A stretch of 64,000 nucleotides of DNA, taken from an uncultured Pirellula sp. (GTDB taxonomy: Bacteria; Planctomycetota; Planctomycetia; Pirellulales; Pirellulaceae). Of the stretch, positions 879 through 9,039 are shown one piece after another. The notes under the pieces were generated by a model. That model was not told where the DNA came from, did not search any database, and saw only the letters and a list, made by a program, of their open reading frames with translations. Both the position numbers and the translations under genes were made by a program. Location: the NCBI GenBank assembly GCA_903858115.1, contig CAIOHR010000033.1, positions 1 to 64,000 of the forward strand, written 5' to 3'. How positions within the stretch are numbered: position 1 is the stretch's first letter; every line of letters begins with the position of its first letter.

Positions 879-1916
879 TCAGCCGATGTTCGCAAGACGC
901 CGAACACCGATCTTGCCAGCCAGCGCGCGCAATCGATCGCGGCTGGCAGATAAGAATCGCCCCATCCAGGGCTTCGATTGCAACTTCTTTACGCGACTTG
1001 ACCAAATGTCGGCACTGCTACCAAGTCGCTCAAAGATCCCTTCCAATTCCTTCGATACCGACGCCTTCCCCTTGCGAATTGTTCGACTCGTGTAGTCCAC
1101 CAACAGCAGATACTGGCCAAACGTGAATCCTTCGCGCATCCCTTCGCGCTCTTCACCTAATCGCCGACGATCCTCAATCGGGATCAACCACAGTCCTTTC
1201 TCGACCTTGCCACTCACCTTCGAAGCCGCCACACTGCCATTGCGAATTTCCTCGACATCGCACATGCGTCCCTTTGATTTAGCATGGTCGACTCGTTCTT
1301 TGATCGAGGTGTGCGGACTCTCTTCGGGTAAACTCACAATACCAGCCGCTACAGGATTCAAGTCGATGTAAGCACACACGGTAAGCAGTGCTTCTTCATC
1401 CAAAATCGCGATCGATTTATAGCGTCCTTCGAAAAAAGCTCCTTTGCACTCATCTTGCTTATTGGCCATTCGAGAGAGTGGTTCTTTAAGGCACTTCATG
1501 AACCAACCCAAAGACGAGAGGCGCTTGCGAGCTTCCTCGACCCATTCCAGGTTATTGGCACGCAATTGCAAGAATTCGTCGGTCGGCTTCATGGGCTTTC
1601 GATCCGCCCCGCGAGGTGGGAACAACCGCGTCCATCGCTTGGCGATTTCGAGCGGCGACCAAGTTTTCGCTTGTTCGTCGTCGATCCGGACTAGAACGTG
1701 AAGGTGACTGTCCATGATGCTAAAACCACCTACGGACACTGCAAAAACTTGATCGAGTTCTTTAAGACGTTGATCGATCCAATCCTTCCGATTGTTAGTC
1801 CCGTCGTCTTGGAGGAGCCACGCGGAGCGTACGCATCTTGAGATCGAATGATACCAACGAGTCACTTTCGTATCCACAAGTCGAAACCGAGCCGTAGTCA
1901 TTGGTCCGTCCCCCAA
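879..1916 (-). CDS. REP-associated tyrosine transposase (RAYT), Y1/HUH family
   Basis: Probable single-strand DNA transposase of the IS200/IS605-related RAYT group, thought to mobilise short REP palindromes. The HUH metal-binding motif is visible as HLH at residues 71-73 in FSIMDSHLHVLVRID. The likely catalytic tyrosine is Y166 in GRYKS, followed by the YIDLNPVAAG signature of this family. At 345 residues it is longer than most RAYTs because of a ~120-residue C-terminal extension. An in-frame methionine at residue 6 is an alternative start. It appears intact. A decayed relative lies at 30.8 kb, sharing the NGSVAA and PIEDR blocks, so the family has been active in this genome. Confidence 0.8.
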   Translation of the reverse strand: MGDGPMTTARFRLVDTKVTRWYHSISRCVRSAWLLQDDGTNNRKDWIDQRLKELDQVFAVSVGGFSIMDSHLHVLVRIDDEQAKTWSPLEIAKRWTRLFPPRGADRKPMKPTDEFLQLRANNLEWVEEARKRLSSLGWFMKCLKEPLSRMANKQDECKGAFFEGRYKSIAILDEEALLTVCAYIDLNPVAAGIVSLPEESPHTSIKERVDHAKSKGRMCDVEEIRNGSVAASKVSGKVEKGLWLIPIEDRRRLGEEREGMREGFTFGQYLLLVDYTSRTIRKGKASVSKELEGIFERLGSSADIWSSRVKKLQSKPWMGRFLSASRDRLRALAGKIGVRRLANIG

Positions 1917-2032: not shown

Positions 2033-3934
2033 CTAAGCGAAGAATTCACTTGCGTCTTTGTATCGAATGCCCAGTCCGTCGGCGAAGTGGCGGTCGCTGT
2101 CCATGTCTCCTACCATGATCATTTCTTCATAGCTCAGTTGGTATTTGCGAGCCAGATAAACACCCAAGCCTGGCATCGGCTTTCGGCAGAAGCAACCGAC
2201 TGGGAATGCGGGATGCGGACAAAATGCAATCTCGGTTACCGGCAATTCCAATAACTCCGCTGTTCGCAGAAATGCCATCTGTGCGTCCATCAATGTAAGC
2301 TTGCCTGACGCAACACCGCTTTGATTCGACACAAAGAATAATTGATACCCATCTTCGATCCAGCGACTCAGCACCTTTTTGCGATTCGGTAGTAAAGTCA
2401 CATCGCTCGCGGATCGAGGATAGATTTCTCCGCTCTTCGTTATACGAAGCGTCCCGTCGACATCCAACAAGAGTCCTTTGTTTCTATGAAGCGGATCATG
2501 CTTTCGCACGAAGGGAATGCGATCGATTGCCGAGAATCCTTCGTCGCTGTCCGGAGCTTCTAACGAATCGAGCCATTTTTGCATGGCTGGCGGTGGAGGT
2601 AAATTCGGATCCACTTTCGCAAGCTCTTTCATATCACCGGGACCGAGCAAGCGTTCGTAGCGCGCAAGGGTTCGTAGCACAACGTTTCTTCTGGCTTCAT
2701 GAATTGGTGTGTCGACCCAACAACAACGGACGGGAACGCCCGCTTGATGGGCGACGCGAACGACACCGGCTCTTGAGACTCTCGTGGGATACGTGTTGTC
2801 GAGCACAACACGAGTGGATCCTGATGCCAGCAGCGTGGCCAAGCGAACGTTAAGATCTTCTAGCTTCCCACCAAGCTCGTCTCGATTCAATCGTGCATAG
2901 CCATGCTTTGTATAGGACCCAACCAATTCGGTTTTCCCAGCCCCTTGAATTCCCATGACGATCATTACCTCAGGCAGGTCGCTCGGTCCAGCGTTTGGCT
3001 CCAGAGTTCGCAGTGTTGTCGGTATCGCTTGGGGTAGGATGCTGGCGACCGCATCGGCATCGGGAGTGAACGAGTATTTTATATCGATGACAGTCTTGTC
3101 GCTTACATCCAACGGCAGTGACAACGCTCCGATCGACGACGCTATGCTAGAACATTGGGTTGCACCGATCAACGGAATGATGCGAGCGTCGGCTTGCAGC
3201 AATGCGGCTAGCGCGATTTCGTGAGGCGATCGTTGGTAGCGTTCTGCGATCGGTTTCAGGACACGATTGGTGGTGAGTTTTTCTACTTTGGCATAACCAC
3301 CCAGTGGCCGGTGCGCTAAGAACGGTATGCCAAGTTCTTTTGCGAGCAATAGCAACCCGTCCGCTGCGGACTTGCGCGAGACAAGGCTTAGTTCGCATTG
3401 CAACGCGGCAACTTGAAAATGTTGTTGCGATTGCCGAACCTCCGCTGGGCCCACGTTGCACAAGCCGAGATTTGCAACCAATCCTTCGGATTGCAATGTC
3501 GCCAGAGCCTCCAAGGTTTCATCGAATGGGACGCGGTTGTCTTTTGCATGCAATTGCAGCAAGTAAATTTGCTCGACATCCAAACACTTGAGTGCCGTTT
3601 CCACGGACTTGCGAATATGTTTCGCTGATCCATTCGGTATCCATTTTCCTTGCGGACGGACCAAGCCGACTTTGGTGAAGATGCGAACTGAATCGCGATC
3701 ACCGCTCCAGGAATCGATTGCTTTGCATGCCAACGTCTCGCCATAGTGGAAATCGGAGTTGTCCAAACAATACGAGTCGGCGGTATCAAGCAATCGGACT
3801 CCATGGTCCAGTGCAAAGTGAATGACCCGAATCGCTTCTGTTTCCTCTATGCGTCCTTCGGTACACAACCGCAGGAGGCCGAGTCCGAGACGATGTGTTG
3901 TGGTGCCGAATACGTCGATGATGTTGGGATACAT
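2033..3934 (-). CDS. Fusion: aldo/keto reductase + polynucleotide-kinase-like P-loop kinase + HAD-IIIA phosphatase
   Basis: A 633-residue protein with three enzymatic parts. Residues 1-300 form an aldo/keto reductase with the catalytic tetrad in place: D50 and Y55 (LLDTADSY), K88 (FTKVG), H129 (LLQLH). Residues 322-430 are a P-loop kinase (GIQGAGKT at 328-335) that closely follows the kinase domain of PNKP enzymes, including LNRDELG, VVLDNTYP and HEARRN. Residues 485-633 are a HAD phosphatase with D491/D493 (LLLDVDGTL), VSNQSG, a zinc-type CPHP...CFCRKP cluster and MVGDMDSD. Kinase followed by phosphatase is the T4 Pnkp order. No nucleic-acid substrate is proven. Small phosphorylated sugars or aldehydes are an alternative. 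It follows the alcohol dehydrogenase on the same strand. Confidence 0.85.
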   Translation of the reverse strand: MYPNIIDVFGTTTHRLGLGLLRLCTEGRIEETEAIRVIHFALDHGVRLLDTADSYCLDNSDFHYGETLACKAIDSWSGDRDSVRIFTKVGLVRPQGKWIPNGSAKHIRKSVETALKCLDVEQIYLLQLHAKDNRVPFDETLEALATLQSEGLVANLGLCNVGPAEVRQSQQHFQVAALQCELSLVSRKSAADGLLLLAKELGIPFLAHRPLGGYAKVEKLTTNRVLKPIAERYQRSPHEIALAALLQADARIIPLIGATQCSSIASSIGALSLPLDVSDKTVIDIKYSFTPDADAVASILPQAIPTTLRTLEPNAGPSDLPEVMIVMGIQGAGKTELVGSYTKHGYARLNRDELGGKLEDLNVRLATLLASGSTRVVLDNTYPTRVSRAGVVRVAHQAGVPVRCCWVDTPIHEARRNVVLRTLARYERLLGPGDMKELAKVDPNLPPPPAMQKWLDSLEAPDSDEGFSAIDRIPFVRKHDPLHRNKGLLLDVDGTLRITKSGEIYPRSASDVTLLPNRKKVLSRWIEDGYQLFFVSNQSGVASGKLTLMDAQMAFLRTAELLELPVTEIAFCPHPAFPVGCFCRKPMPGLGVYLARKYQLSYEEMIMVGDMDSDRHFADGLGIRYKDASEFFA

Positions 3935-4148: not shown

Positions 4149-5312
4149 TCAGATAGCAGCAGTGTAGAGTTCAATAAAGTCCGTTTTCGAAAGAGAGCGT
4201 GGGTTGAAGCTCGCTGTCCATTGCTTAGAGGCCATCTCCCCCAGTTTTTCAATAAAGGAGGCCGATTCTTGATGAGCCGGCCAACCGCTTAATGTCGTGA
4301 GATTCGTCGATAAACCCGCTTGCGTCAACCAGTTGGTAACGAGCTCGGAAAGTACTGTCGATGCATCCGAGTGCGTGTTTGCTGTCATGGAACAGCTCCG
4401 TACCAATCGAGCATATCGATCTCCTACGACCGGCGCGTTGAAACGAATGACATGGGGCATCATCAGGCCGACGGCTTGTCCATGCGGTGTTCCTAAATAT
4501 GCAGTCAAAGGGTTTGCCAATGCATGAGCAGCTCCCAGCATCGATGCCTCAATGGCCATACCTGCAAAACAAGCACCGAGTTGCATTTCGGATCGACCTC
4601 GAAGGTCGTTGGGGTTCTGTAGAACTGAGGGGAAGCCGACGATCAGACGCTCCCAAGATTCCAAAGAAAAGCACTCCGACATCGGAGTCCGCTTATTGCA
4701 AACATAGGTCTCCAAAGCATGCGTTATTGCATCAATACCGGTTAGCGCGGTCACTCGGTTCGGTTGTGTTACGGTAAGTTCAGGATCGAGGATCGCCACC
4801 TTGCAAGCTGCACCTGGATCTCCGCAGGCCATTTTGACATGCGTTTCGGCATCGCTGATAAGTGCGAATGACTGCGTTTCGCTCCCTGTGCCAGAGGTCG
4901 TCGGAACAGCGATCATGGGCAACATAGGACCTTTCGCTTTTCCAATACCCCAATAATCTTGCATTCGACCGCCACAAGAATAAAGGAAGTTAATTCCCTT
5001 GGCGCAGTCCATGCTCGATCCCCCTCCGAGACCAACGATCAGATCGGGTCTAAATCTTTGCGCGGCGCTCAGACCTAGTTTCACGTTGTTTGTATTTGGG
5101 TTTTCCGCAAAGTCATGAAACCCCTCGACAATCAATTGGGATTGTTCCAGGCTCGCTTTGCCTCGTTCAAAGAGACCTGCGTTCACAACTCCCAGGTCAC
5201 TGACGACCAGTATTTTGAGGGCTCCAAGTTCGCGGGCTAATTCCCCTAATCTTTGGATGGAACCCGCGCCAAAAACGATTCGCGGCCTGAGCCTAAAGTC
5301 AAATTCCTGCAT
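4149..5312 (-). CDS. Iron-containing alcohol dehydrogenase (group III)
   Basis: Predicted cytosolic NAD(P)-dependent alcohol/aldehyde oxidoreductase, 387 residues, the normal length for the family. The dinucleotide-binding GGGSSMDCAKG lies at 96-106 and the TTSGTGSE motif at 138-145. The metal ligands expected for group III enzymes are D194 and H198 (GIDAITHALE), H263 (AAHALANP) and H277 (GTPHGQA). The C-terminal NPRSLSKTDFIELYTAAI is a natural family ending, so the TGA at 4149 is probably the true stop. The fusion gene at 2033-3934 lies downstream on the same strand and may be co-transcribed. A 10-bp palindrome (ACAATATTGT) touches the start codon and could be an operator. Substrate cannot be deduced. 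Confidence 0.9.
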   Translation of the reverse strand: MQEFDFRLRPRIVFGAGSIQRLGELARELGALKILVVSDLGVVNAGLFERGKASLEQSQLIVEGFHDFAENPNTNNVKLGLSAAQRFRPDLIVGLGGGSSMDCAKGINFLYSCGGRMQDYWGIGKAKGPMLPMIAVPTTSGTGSETQSFALISDAETHVKMACGDPGAACKVAILDPELTVTQPNRVTALTGIDAITHALETYVCNKRTPMSECFSLESWERLIVGFPSVLQNPNDLRGRSEMQLGACFAGMAIEASMLGAAHALANPLTAYLGTPHGQAVGLMMPHVIRFNAPVVGDRYARLVRSCSMTANTHSDASTVLSELVTNWLTQAGLSTNLTTLSGWPAHQESASFIEKLGEMASKQWTASFNPRSLSKTDFIELYTAAI

Positions 5313-7302: not shown

Positions 7303-9039
7303 TCAGCCAAGTATCTCTGTACGTACCCGGTCTCGTTCACGATCGATCTGCTCAGGAGTCGCTCCGAGATCGCGTAGCAAGTATTCCGCCAATGCCATCG
7401 CCACCTCACTTTCCCCCGAAAAGACGGTATTGGCTCCCGATTTCAACAGTGATGTTCGTTCTCGCAACGATGCTGCTCGAACGATCACCTTGATCTCAGG
7501 GTTCAGTCGTCGTGCAACGCGAATAACCTCTTCTGCTCCGCGTATCGTCGATGCACCGAGTATCAAACTCGAACTGGTCTGGATCCCAGCCATTTTGAGT
7601 GTGTCGGCATGAGTTGCGTCCCCCAACGTGACCGGAAAACCCGCTTGCCGAACGGATTCGAGCGTAGCATGATTCATTTCAATGATCGAGGGCTGAACTC
7701 CATTTTCTGATAGTAGCCGCGCAACCGTCTTACCGACCGGACCATAACCGACGATCACCGCTCGATGCAATTCATCCGCATACACGGTATCCATAGGATT
7801 ATTCAATTTCACCTTTTTGCTAAAGGGTTCACGCATTACCAACAGTGGTTGGAGCATCGTCGATCGTTTGGCTACTCCAACCATCGGATCGACAAGCCGT
7901 TGCAGGATCGGTGAAATCGATATCGATGCAATCGAGACGGCCACCAAAACCTGCATCACTTCGGCTCGAATCAATTGAAGCTCCTGAGCGAGACTTGAGA
8001 TGATGAACGAGAACTCGCCAATCTGAGCCAAAGAAAAAGCGACCCGCAAACTGAGCTCGAGTGGATAGCCTAACGAAAGAGACAAGGTCATGCAGACGAA
8101 TGGCGTAATAAGCATGACAATTCCGAGGGTCGCCAAAAGCATGCCACGCGATTCTACGAGCACGTTTGGGTCAAACAGCATTCCAATCGAAACAAAGAAA
8201 AGGACCGCGAATGCATCTCGCATCGGAAGAGCTTCCGTAGCTGCACGCACGGCGAAGTCGGATTGTCCCACCACAACTCCCGCCATGAACGCCCCTAACG
8301 CGACGGATACACCAAACAGTTCCGACGAGCCGATGGCAATCCCGAGCACAATCACTAACACCGTAAGCGTAAACAACTCGCGTGAATGGGTTGCAGCAAC
8401 ATGCTTGAGAATGGTAGGAATGGCCCGCCCTCCAATCACTATAATGGCAGCAACAGCGATGGCAATCTTCAGCACCGTCATGGCAATAGCACCTCCGATC
8501 TCGGGGACAGTTAGCTGCTGCTCACCACCCATCGACGGTAACAACACCAACACAAGCACGGCCAGTACGTCTTGTACGATGAGCCACCCGATGGCGACGC
8601 TTCCAGTCAGTGACTGAACCTCGTTAGCGTCCGCCAGAACTCGCATGACGACGACCGTGCTCGCGAATGCGATCGAAATCCCAAAAACAACGGACGACGA
8701 AAATGACCAACCAAAGGAGTTAGCTGCCACCAATCCGGCCAAAAACGAAATGAAACATTGAACCAATGCGCCAGGAATGGCGATCCGTTTTACTCGTGAC
8801 AATTCCCCGAGATCAAAATGCAGCCCTACACCAAACATCAAGAGAATGACGCCAAGCTCTGCTAACTGTTTTGCAATCTCCGAGTTTGCGACGAAACCAG
8901 GCGAGTTCGGGCCCACCACGATTCCTGCCAATAAGTAACCAACGATCGGAGACAATCCTAGGCGATGCGTGATGTACCCCAAAACCAGCGCTGCACCCAA
9001 TCCGCCACCTAGCGTTATCAACAACTCCATGTCTTGCAT
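7303..9039 (-). CDS. Monovalent cation:proton antiporter, CPA2/KefB type with TrkA-N domain
   Basis: Inner-membrane cation/proton antiporter of about 578 residues. The N-terminal two thirds is a run of hydrophobic helices, beginning GYITHRLGLSPIVGYLLAGIVVGP and containing ASTVVVMRVL, characteristic of the Na/H exchanger fold. The C-terminal third is a TrkA-N Rossmann regulatory domain (AVIVGYGPVGKTVARLL) that binds NAD(H) in related proteins. The start at 9039 (MQDMELLITLGGG) is preferred over a 60-codon longer frame because it has an AAAGGA box and begins at the first membrane helix. It is divergent from the oxidoreductase at 9276. Ion specificity (K+ versus Na+) cannot be read from sequence. 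Role in pH or potassium homeostasis is inferred. Confidence 0.9.
   Translation of the reverse strand: MQDMELLITLGGGLGAALVLGYITHRLGLSPIVGYLLAGIVVGPNSPGFVANSEIAKQLAELGVILLMFGVGLHFDLGELSRVKRIAIPGALVQCFISFLAGLVAANSFGWSFSSSVVFGISIAFASTVVVMRVLADANEVQSLTGSVAIGWLIVQDVLAVLVLVLLPSMGGEQQLTVPEIGGAIAMTVLKIAIAVAAIIVIGGRAIPTILKHVAATHSRELFTLTVLVIVLGIAIGSSELFGVSVALGAFMAGVVVGQSDFAVRAATEALPMRDAFAVLFFVSIGMLFDPNVLVESRGMLLATLGIVMLITPFVCMTLSLSLGYPLELSLRVAFSLAQIGEFSFIISSLAQELQLIRAEVMQVLVAVSIASISISPILQRLVDPMVGVAKRSTMLQPLLVMREPFSKKVKLNNPMDTVYADELHRAVIVGYGPVGKTVARLLSENGVQPSIIEMNHATLESVRQAGFPVTLGDATHADTLKMAGIQTSSSLILGASTIRGAEEVIRVARRLNPEIKVIVRAASLRERTSLLKSGANTVFSGESEVAMALAEYLLRDLGATPEQIDRERDRVRTEILG

Follow-up and report, generated by a model that had tools for sequence, protein, structure and literature searches.

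Why an aldo/keto reductase (AKR) should share a polypeptide with a kinase and a phosphatase of the kind that heal nucleic acid ends is the question raised by a gene on the reverse strand of a 64,000-nucleotide stretch of DNA from an uncultured Pirellula sp. (contig CAIOHR010000033.1, positions 1 to 64,000; this whole stretch is termed the window). A preliminary description of the gene recognized three enzymes in one chain, proposed nucleic acid end healing and offered phosphosugar processing as an alternative. The three-domain architecture and the active-site residues of the window protein are confirmed here, and the AKR-kinase-HAD fusion is a real, recurring protein family. The function we favor, while stopping short of calling it probable, is single-chain end healing of C5'-oxidized nucleic acid breaks, in which a 5'-aldehyde would be reduced and phosphorylated and the facing 3'-phosphate cleared.

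Domain architecture and active sites of the window protein

The chain is encoded by one open reading frame of 633 amino acids (Table 1), on which Pfam places Aldo_ket_red (residues 15-285, E 1.7e-44, 152.5 bits against a gathering cut-off of 24), AAA_33 (residues 323-425, E 1.2e-10) and PNK3P (residues 490-632, E 2.1e-11), the latter two also above their curated cut-offs. An AlphaFold2 model of the full chain built with 46 aligned rows has a mean predicted local distance difference test score (pLDDT) of 92.2 and a predicted template modeling score (pTM) of 0.78, and the kinase-HAD part modeled alone with 39 rows gives 96.6 and 0.91. The linker between the AKR and the kinase has mean pLDDT values of 86, 80 and 90 in blocks 291-300, 301-310 and 311-320 of the full-length model and carries a 13-column insertion in one relative (L014).

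Table 1. Positions of the fusion gene and its parts in the window.
Feature	Positions	Strand	Basis
Whole fusion gene, AKR - PNKP-type kinase - zinc HAD phosphatase	2033..3934	(-)	633-residue open reading frame from ATG; Pfam, NCBIfam
Aldo/keto reductase domain, residues 15-285, tetrad D50, Y55, K88, H129	3080..3892	(-)	Pfam; structure match to AKR13B2
AKR-kinase linker, residues ~290-318	2981..3067	(-)	pLDDT of full-length model
PNKP-type P-loop kinase domain (predicted), residues 320-478	2501..2977	(-)	Pfam, profile, structure match to mouse PNKP kinase
HAD-IIIA phosphatase domain, residues 485-632, motifs DVDGT, SNQ, VGDMDSD	2039..2482	(-)	Pfam, NCBIfam, structure matches
Putative zinc-loop ligands CPHPAFPVGCFC, residues 572-583 (C572, H574, C581, C583)	2186..2221	(-)	Alignment conservation

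Both the gathering score and the tetrad place the first domain in the aldo/keto reductase superfamily (PF00248). The tetrad D50/Y55/K88/H129, whose residue roles are established for AKRs in general, is complete in the window protein, as the preliminary description stated, and in 45 of the 46 rows of the family alignment, the 46th (L060) being cut within the AKR by trimming. The model superposes on AKR13B2 (PDB code 8hnq) with a Z score of 34.4 and a root mean square deviation (rmsd) of 1.7 over 265 residues; pyridoxal reductase is also near, and Kv-beta structures match at Z ~29. Compared with the AKR13 members of solved structure, identity is 33% to AKR13B2 and 26-27% to perakine reductase, and AKR nomenclature sets 40% identity to any one member as the lower bound for joining a family. 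The position equivalent to a lysine in AKR13B2, residue 260, is basic in 41/46 rows and a glutamine in the window protein; where basic, this residue may favor NADPH.

The kinase contains the P-loop GIQGAGKT, RLNRDELGG, VVLDNTYPTRVSR, Arg421 and an E-x-P...EGF...F tail that is common to PNKP, and the eleven kinase residues checked are conserved in all 46 rows. Homology to the PNKP kinase extends over the length of the domain, with the P-loop, NRD, DNT and C-terminal EGF...F elements all present. The NCBIfam model of whole PNKP (TIGR01663) is matched over its positions 361-504 with E 6.4e-28 and 97.4 bits, far below the whole-protein equivalog cut-off of 502.8. Searched against solved structures, the kinase profile has its best match in mammalian PNKP (E 7e-26), followed by a pair of fungal kinases (E 1e-11 and 5e-11) and after these only Clostridium thermocellum Pnkp (CthPnkp; 0.005). 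The kinase model superposes on the mouse PNKP kinase with Z 20.0 and rmsd 1.5 over 145 residues at 34% identity, with lower Z scores for CthPnkp and the fungal kinases (16-17), the tRNA kinase PSTK (~14) and gluconate kinase (13-14). By profile and model the kinase is thus predicted to be of the PNKP type, as first described, and nearer PNKP than any small-molecule kinase among the matches listed.

The HAD domain has the DxDG, N and D motifs and belongs to HAD-IIIA (TIGR01662; 70.7 bits, E 1.3e-19, cut-off 44.6). Its scores for DNA 3'-phosphatase (TIGR01664; 59.4 bits, equivalog-domain cut-off 107.65) and for the heptose bisphosphate phosphatase GmhB (PRK08942; 62.6 bits, equivalog cut-off 178) fall below the thresholds of those families, the histidinol phosphatase score is 64.4 bits, and Pfam gives no match at E 0.01 to the T4-type Pnkp phosphatase HAD_PNKP (PF25109). 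The nearest structures are GmhB (Z 20.3, 24% identity), HisB-N (Z 19.0, 22%) and the PNKP phosphatase (Z 18.9, 32%). Identity leans toward PNKP and the NCBIfam scores toward HAD-IIIA, histidinol phosphatase and GmhB, so likeness does not decide the substrate of the domain. A C-x-H...C-x-C zinc loop is characteristic of the small-molecule enzymes GmhB and HisB-N, and by this likeness the C572-x-H574...C581-x-C583 loop, present in 45/46 rows, probably binds zinc, in keeping with the zinc-type HAD of the preliminary description. The remaining row, L051 (4912-6621), has a frame that stops early within the HAD and lacks the loop, possibly through a broken gene or an assembly error.

Distribution and descent of the fusion

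A scan with a kinase-HAD alignment against one genome per species returned 49 loci, in 45 of which the AKR and kinase-HAD profiles match on a single frame (frames extended). Three of the other four (L034, L050 and L054) run off the start of the available stretch, and L023 has no more than a remnant of the AKR at that edge. Since the arrangement holds at 45/49 loci and six relatives 56-92% identical to the window protein over its length share it, the fusion is not a chance read-through. The genomes are labeled as Planctomycetota, Myxococcota, Gemmatimonadota, Acidobacteriota, Verrucomicrobiota, Lentisphaerota and Pseudomonadota, labels that can err as most are metagenome-assembled genomes (MAGs); two carriers not marked as MAGs are Sorangium cellulosum So0008-312 (L046, with a full HAD) and Enhygromyxa salina SWB005 (L061, HAD-degenerate). 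A copy labeled as a Klebsiella pneumoniae MAG (L045) has the same lengths and scores as a copy in genome G455, and for this reason its label is probably wrong. Another labeled as Proteobacteria (L063) equals in the same way a copy in G329, both twin genomes being drawn from the phylum of Enhygromyxa.

Closer to the window the distribution is patchy. Among 60 relatives the fusion occurs in nine, eight from the 27 that belong to the window's genus and one from a different genus of the same family. One genome (G016) has it divided over two contigs, another (G015) shows just the kinase-HAD end, at the edge of a contig, and a tenth match (G051) is an AKR alone. A phylum sample of 246 genomes gave a strong kinase match in 3 and only weak matches (40-46 bits) in 7, and 188 genomes from the phylum of the Enhygromyxa genome G304 gave a strong match in 14 and a weak one in 1. 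The AKR is in frame in 16 of the 18 strong copies from this latter set. One of the other two (L105) seems to be cut by a contig end, with no AKR seen; the other (L106) is a stand-alone kinase-HAD of 313 amino acids, whose 3.5-kb locus yields no AKR match in any frame. Four genomes of the set (G309, G318, G435 and G455) hold two strong copies each, and in G309 (copies L047/L109 and L062/L089) the HAD motifs are full in one copy and degenerate in the other.

Ten copies, mostly from Enhygromyxa-phylum genomes (L097, L102, L104, L107, L109 (= L047), L110, L111, L112, L048 and L044), have an extra N-terminal domain of ~170 amino acids with the pattern LSNxELSxGL...GR..S...R..A.PD. It has no Pfam match (tested on L112), and the sole PDB match of its profile up to E 10, a ribosomal protein at E 0.28, is not convincing; a reading by eye as a helix-turn-helix domain was therefore dropped. 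A plasmid search matched 1006 records, none over 80% of the query; the 15 listed are essentially to the AKR part, and one that was inspected is a stand-alone AKR. PADLOC has no family for the window protein or for one phage copy.

In a phage-rooted tree of 71 kinase-HAD sequences (a quick method with SH-aLRT (Shimodaira-Hasegawa-like approximate likelihood ratio test) support only, and many rows of odd letter make-up), every row with a seen AKR lies in one starred clade of 52 rows (97), which also contains the truncated L050, L054 and L105, in which no AKR is seen. The 18 phage rows form one side of a starred branch (98). As all AKR-bearing rows fall in one clade and the stand-alone L106 branches just outside it, the simplest reading is that the AKR was joined once to a phage-like kinase-HAD, with subsequent exchange across phyla and a single main episode of HAD decay. 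Pairwise distances correlate between AKR and kinase (r 0.90), AKR and HAD (0.86) and kinase and HAD (0.83) in 43/46 rows (L051, L058 and L060 left out), which shows that the three domains travelled together, a correlation that shared ancestry by itself yields.

The decay of the HAD is concentrated in one starred group (100) of 17 tree rows labeled HAD-degenerate. The loss is not strictly single because L105, a truncated copy labeled intact and placed outside this clade, also lacks the nucleophile by eye. In the family alignment the DxDG, N and D motifs are full in 31/46 rows, including the window protein, and lost in 14, with L051 truncated; Pfam finds AKR and AAA_33 in 46/46 rows and PNK3P in 31/46. 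The 14 rows without HAD catalytic motifs retain the zinc ligands, the AKR tetrad and the kinase residues. Mean distances in 12 degenerate rows are 0.62 for the HAD, 0.47 for the kinase and 0.49 for the AKR, compared with 0.39, 0.40 and 0.44 in the 31 others. Because one clade has lost its HAD catalytic residues and kept the AKR and kinase sites, the AKR and kinase look like the core of the protein and the phosphatase like a dispensable part. The preliminary description had named loss of activity in any domain as evidence against its proposal; such a loss is predicted for this clade and does not extend to the window protein.

Phage relatives and the surroundings of the gene

Kinase-HADs without an AKR occur in two large GenBank phages (L094 and L095) and on 34 IMG/VR contigs (L114-L147), in all 33 distinct loci after the duplicates L117/L118, L146/L147 and L145/L095 are merged. 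The AKR profile finds nothing in their available flanks, and two control loci gave the AKR. A protein search of a phage collection returned 5 records, 2 of them nearly complete and 3 with the HAD only, and a fusion-derived profile found only 3 matches on viral contigs, again HAD-only. Identity to the window kinase-HAD is 38-43% for six IMG/VR rows, 40% for L094 and 29% for L095. In PHROGs three phage copies match phrog_505, polynucleotide kinase, and the window kinase-HAD has no match. One phage kinase-HAD (L146/L147, the same sequence, ~7986-8920) lies in two open reading frames and is apparently broken.

Part of the phage loci are placed in RNA-repair islands. In L125, Pfam identifies as neighbors RlaP, a second kinase-phosphatase of T4 type (HAD_PNKP, PF25109, 2.4e-47), two PF09414 ligases and one T4 Rnl1-type ligase. 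This island (L125:7986-16162, with RlaP upstream at 646-1803) and its syntenic phage loci hold zinc-HAD and T4-type kinase-phosphatases together with three RNA ligases. Profiles of these neighbors, run against 36 phage loci that include the training loci, match RlaP in 17, Rnl2-like ligases in 13 and 13 and an Rnl1-like ligase in 15. PF09414 occurs somewhere in 21 of the 22 phage records searched whole. Above cut-off and within 8 kb of the kinase it is found in 10/22 records (2.2 expected, maximum 9 in 5000 random placements), and within 10 kb in 11/22 (2.7 expected, maximum 9). Sets of kinase-HAD, RNA ligase and RlaP are described as RNA repair in jumbo phages in passages of PMC7824862, a text that contains no word starting with "aldo". 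Elsewhere among the phages, an NAD synthase gene lies near the kinase-HAD at L094:7898-9577, with a homologous neighbor in L114, and NADAR and APS-kinase-like genes lie near it at L095:7040-8467 (the same phage as L145).

In the window an iron-containing alcohol dehydrogenase (4149-5312 (-)) is encoded 214 bases upstream of the fusion on the same strand. It was rejected as a conserved neighbor, since it is not beside a 92%-identical relative (L009/L019), where a gyrase-B-like gene stands upstream by eye. On the other side, the product of 879-1916 (-) matches an IS200-like transposase weakly (17.7 bits against a cut-off of 23) and is possibly a REP-associated transposase.

Proposed function and relation to known systems

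A C5'-oxidized break is proposed as the substrate because the reported termini of such breaks need a reductase, a kinase and a 3'-phosphatase together. The AKR would use NAD(P)H to turn the 5'-terminal nucleoside aldehyde, a C5' oxidation product, into a 5'-hydroxyl, which the PNKP-type kinase, as its strong family match suggests, would phosphorylate with ATP, and the zinc HAD would take the 3'-phosphate off the facing end, leaving a break that a cellular ligase encoded elsewhere could seal. In the HAD-degenerate clade another phosphatase would supply the last step, with AKR and kinase acting serially on the same end; retention of these two domains while the HAD decays fits an AKR and kinase that work on one 5' end and a HAD that works on the other. 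Passages of PMC3825254 call the resolution of 5'-aldehydes at enediyne double-strand breaks "essentially unknown," and those of PMC12564780 name only non-specific long-patch repair in vitro for such ends. It is rather doubtful, though conceivable, that the fusion is the first dedicated enzyme to reverse nucleoside 5'-aldehyde ends directly, restoring a C5'-oxidized break without loss of a nucleotide.

Several observations weigh against healing of C5'-oxidized breaks. AKRs are promiscuous, and a small aldehyde would fit as substrate; by Z score GmhB and HisB lie as near the HAD as PNKP does; AvrRxo1 has a PNK-like fold and reportedly phosphorylates NAD; and the HAD loss is open to other readings as well. 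Clustering of open reading frames around the 49 scan loci reveals no conserved neighbor among the 45 largest clusters listed, which by eye are shadow frames of the gene, synteny among close relatives (L020/L022; L021/L024/L034) and a handful of scattered common genes. RNA ligase or RlaP genes adjoin the kinase-HAD in part of the phage loci, and the RNA-ligase and RlaP profiles derived from phages match in 0 of 66 bacterial loci with flanks of up to 6 kb or 1.5 kb (49 from the scan and 17 from the Enhygromyxa phylum, including L106, an unrelated weak kinase L108 and some duplicates), where the T4-type Pnkp profile gives one weak match (L110, 18.6 bits). Among the 60 relatives PF09414 is above cut-off in 2/9 fusion genomes and 9/51 others, with no association. 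The phage ligase link itself amounts to about two independent observations because nine of the ten records with a near ligase form one syntenic group, the tenth being L128; 12/22 have no PF09414 within 8 kb, and at 15 kb the count (11/22, random mean 4.0) does not exceed the random maximum of 11. These phage surroundings suggest RNA repair, while the reported 5'-aldehyde ends are in DNA. Finally, 5'-aldehydes are described as unstable in passages of PMC3950721, and non-specific ways to remove them are named in those of PMC3825254 and PMC12564780.

Repair of RNA ends would suit the phage islands and the published jumbo-phage sets, with the kinase-HAD healing ribotoxin-cleaved RNA like phage Pnkp and the AKR removing another RNA carbonyl or using NAD(P)H to process a modified nucleotide. 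We consider this unlikely given the lack of RNA-ligase and RlaP matches in the short flanks of the bacterial loci and the absence of PF09414 from the genome of the window (other ligase families were not searched there), and we know of no RNA carbonyl that requires such an AKR. A role in small-molecule metabolism, where, as in phosphosugar salvage, a polyol or sugar alcohol produced by the AKR would be the substrate of the kinase and the HAD would strip off another phosphate, draws on the HAD resemblance to GmhB and HisB-N, on the nearness of the AKR to AKR13B2 and pyridoxal reductase and on the lack of repair genes seen in the bacterial flanks; the PNKP-like kinase, the stand-alone sister module in the RNA-repair islands of part of the phages and the lack of conserved metabolic genes among the bacterial clusters listed make it decidedly unlikely. 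The end healing of the preliminary description has thus gained support from the PNKP match and from the stand-alone phage module, partly beside RNA ligases and RlaP, with a role for the AKR that is still conjectural, and its phosphosugar alternative is weakened and kept as a rival.

The AKR might instead serve as a redox sensor or a scaffold, in the manner of Kv-beta subunits, and turn the Pnkp part on in oxidative stress without acting on the strand. The Kv-beta matches and the co-divergence of the domains agree with this, the almost invariant tetrad argues against it while also suiting a sensor that still turns over, and on balance it seems improbable. Hardly likely at all is a kinase that acts on NAD(P) or on a nicotinamide or ADP-ribose derivative, with the AKR as its partner in a nucleotide cofactor pathway; the NAD synthase and NADAR genes of the phages and the reported activity of AvrRxo1 speak for it, and against it stand the PNKP type of the kinase, the restriction of these neighbors to two phage lineages and the lack of a recurring NAD gene among the bacterial clusters listed.

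Healing of C5'-oxidized breaks by the fusion, if correct, would join a conserved protein with three matching predicted activities to 5'-aldehyde resolution and make that question testable. Should the enzyme act on RNA or small molecules, it is still a widespread architecture in which one clade has a phosphatase domain without catalytic residues. Kinase-phosphatase end healing is already well known, and what appears new is the built-in reductase and the pseudo-phosphatase clade; in agreement with the preliminary description, which knew of no such combination, searches of open-access literature, judged by titles and the starts of abstracts, turned up no AKR-polynucleotide kinase fusion.

The fused AKR has the fold and tetrad of AKR13B2 and similar reductases. 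AKR13B2 stands alone, and its cofactor motif is GTGK...EEN in place of the GAT-(R/K)...SS of most fusion rows. GmhB and HisB-N (PDB codes 2gmw and 2fps) have the HAD-IIIA fold in common with the window HAD at Z 19-20, although the window domain scores under the equivalog cut-offs of both. Eukaryotic PNKP (TIGR01663; mouse PDB codes 1yj5, 3zvn and 3u7g) has a kinase of the same subfamily along its length and a phosphatase (PDB code 3u7h) with the similarity given above. In PNKP, however, the phosphatase comes first, whereas in the fusion the kinase precedes the HAD; PNKP is not known to have a zinc loop, and its FHA domain is not found by Pfam in the window protein, the AKR being an addition of the fusion. 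T4 Pnkp (PDB codes 2ia5 and 1ltq), the top Foldseek match, likewise has kinase then HAD phosphatase in one chain but no AKR; it too is not known to have a zinc loop, is 13-16% identical, and its two domains fail to superpose jointly (1ltq, rmsd 12.4 over 260). The jumbo-phage kinase-HADs, part of them in RNA-repair islands, differ from the fusion in having no AKR in frame or in the flanks and share with it both the kinase-HAD order and the zinc loop.

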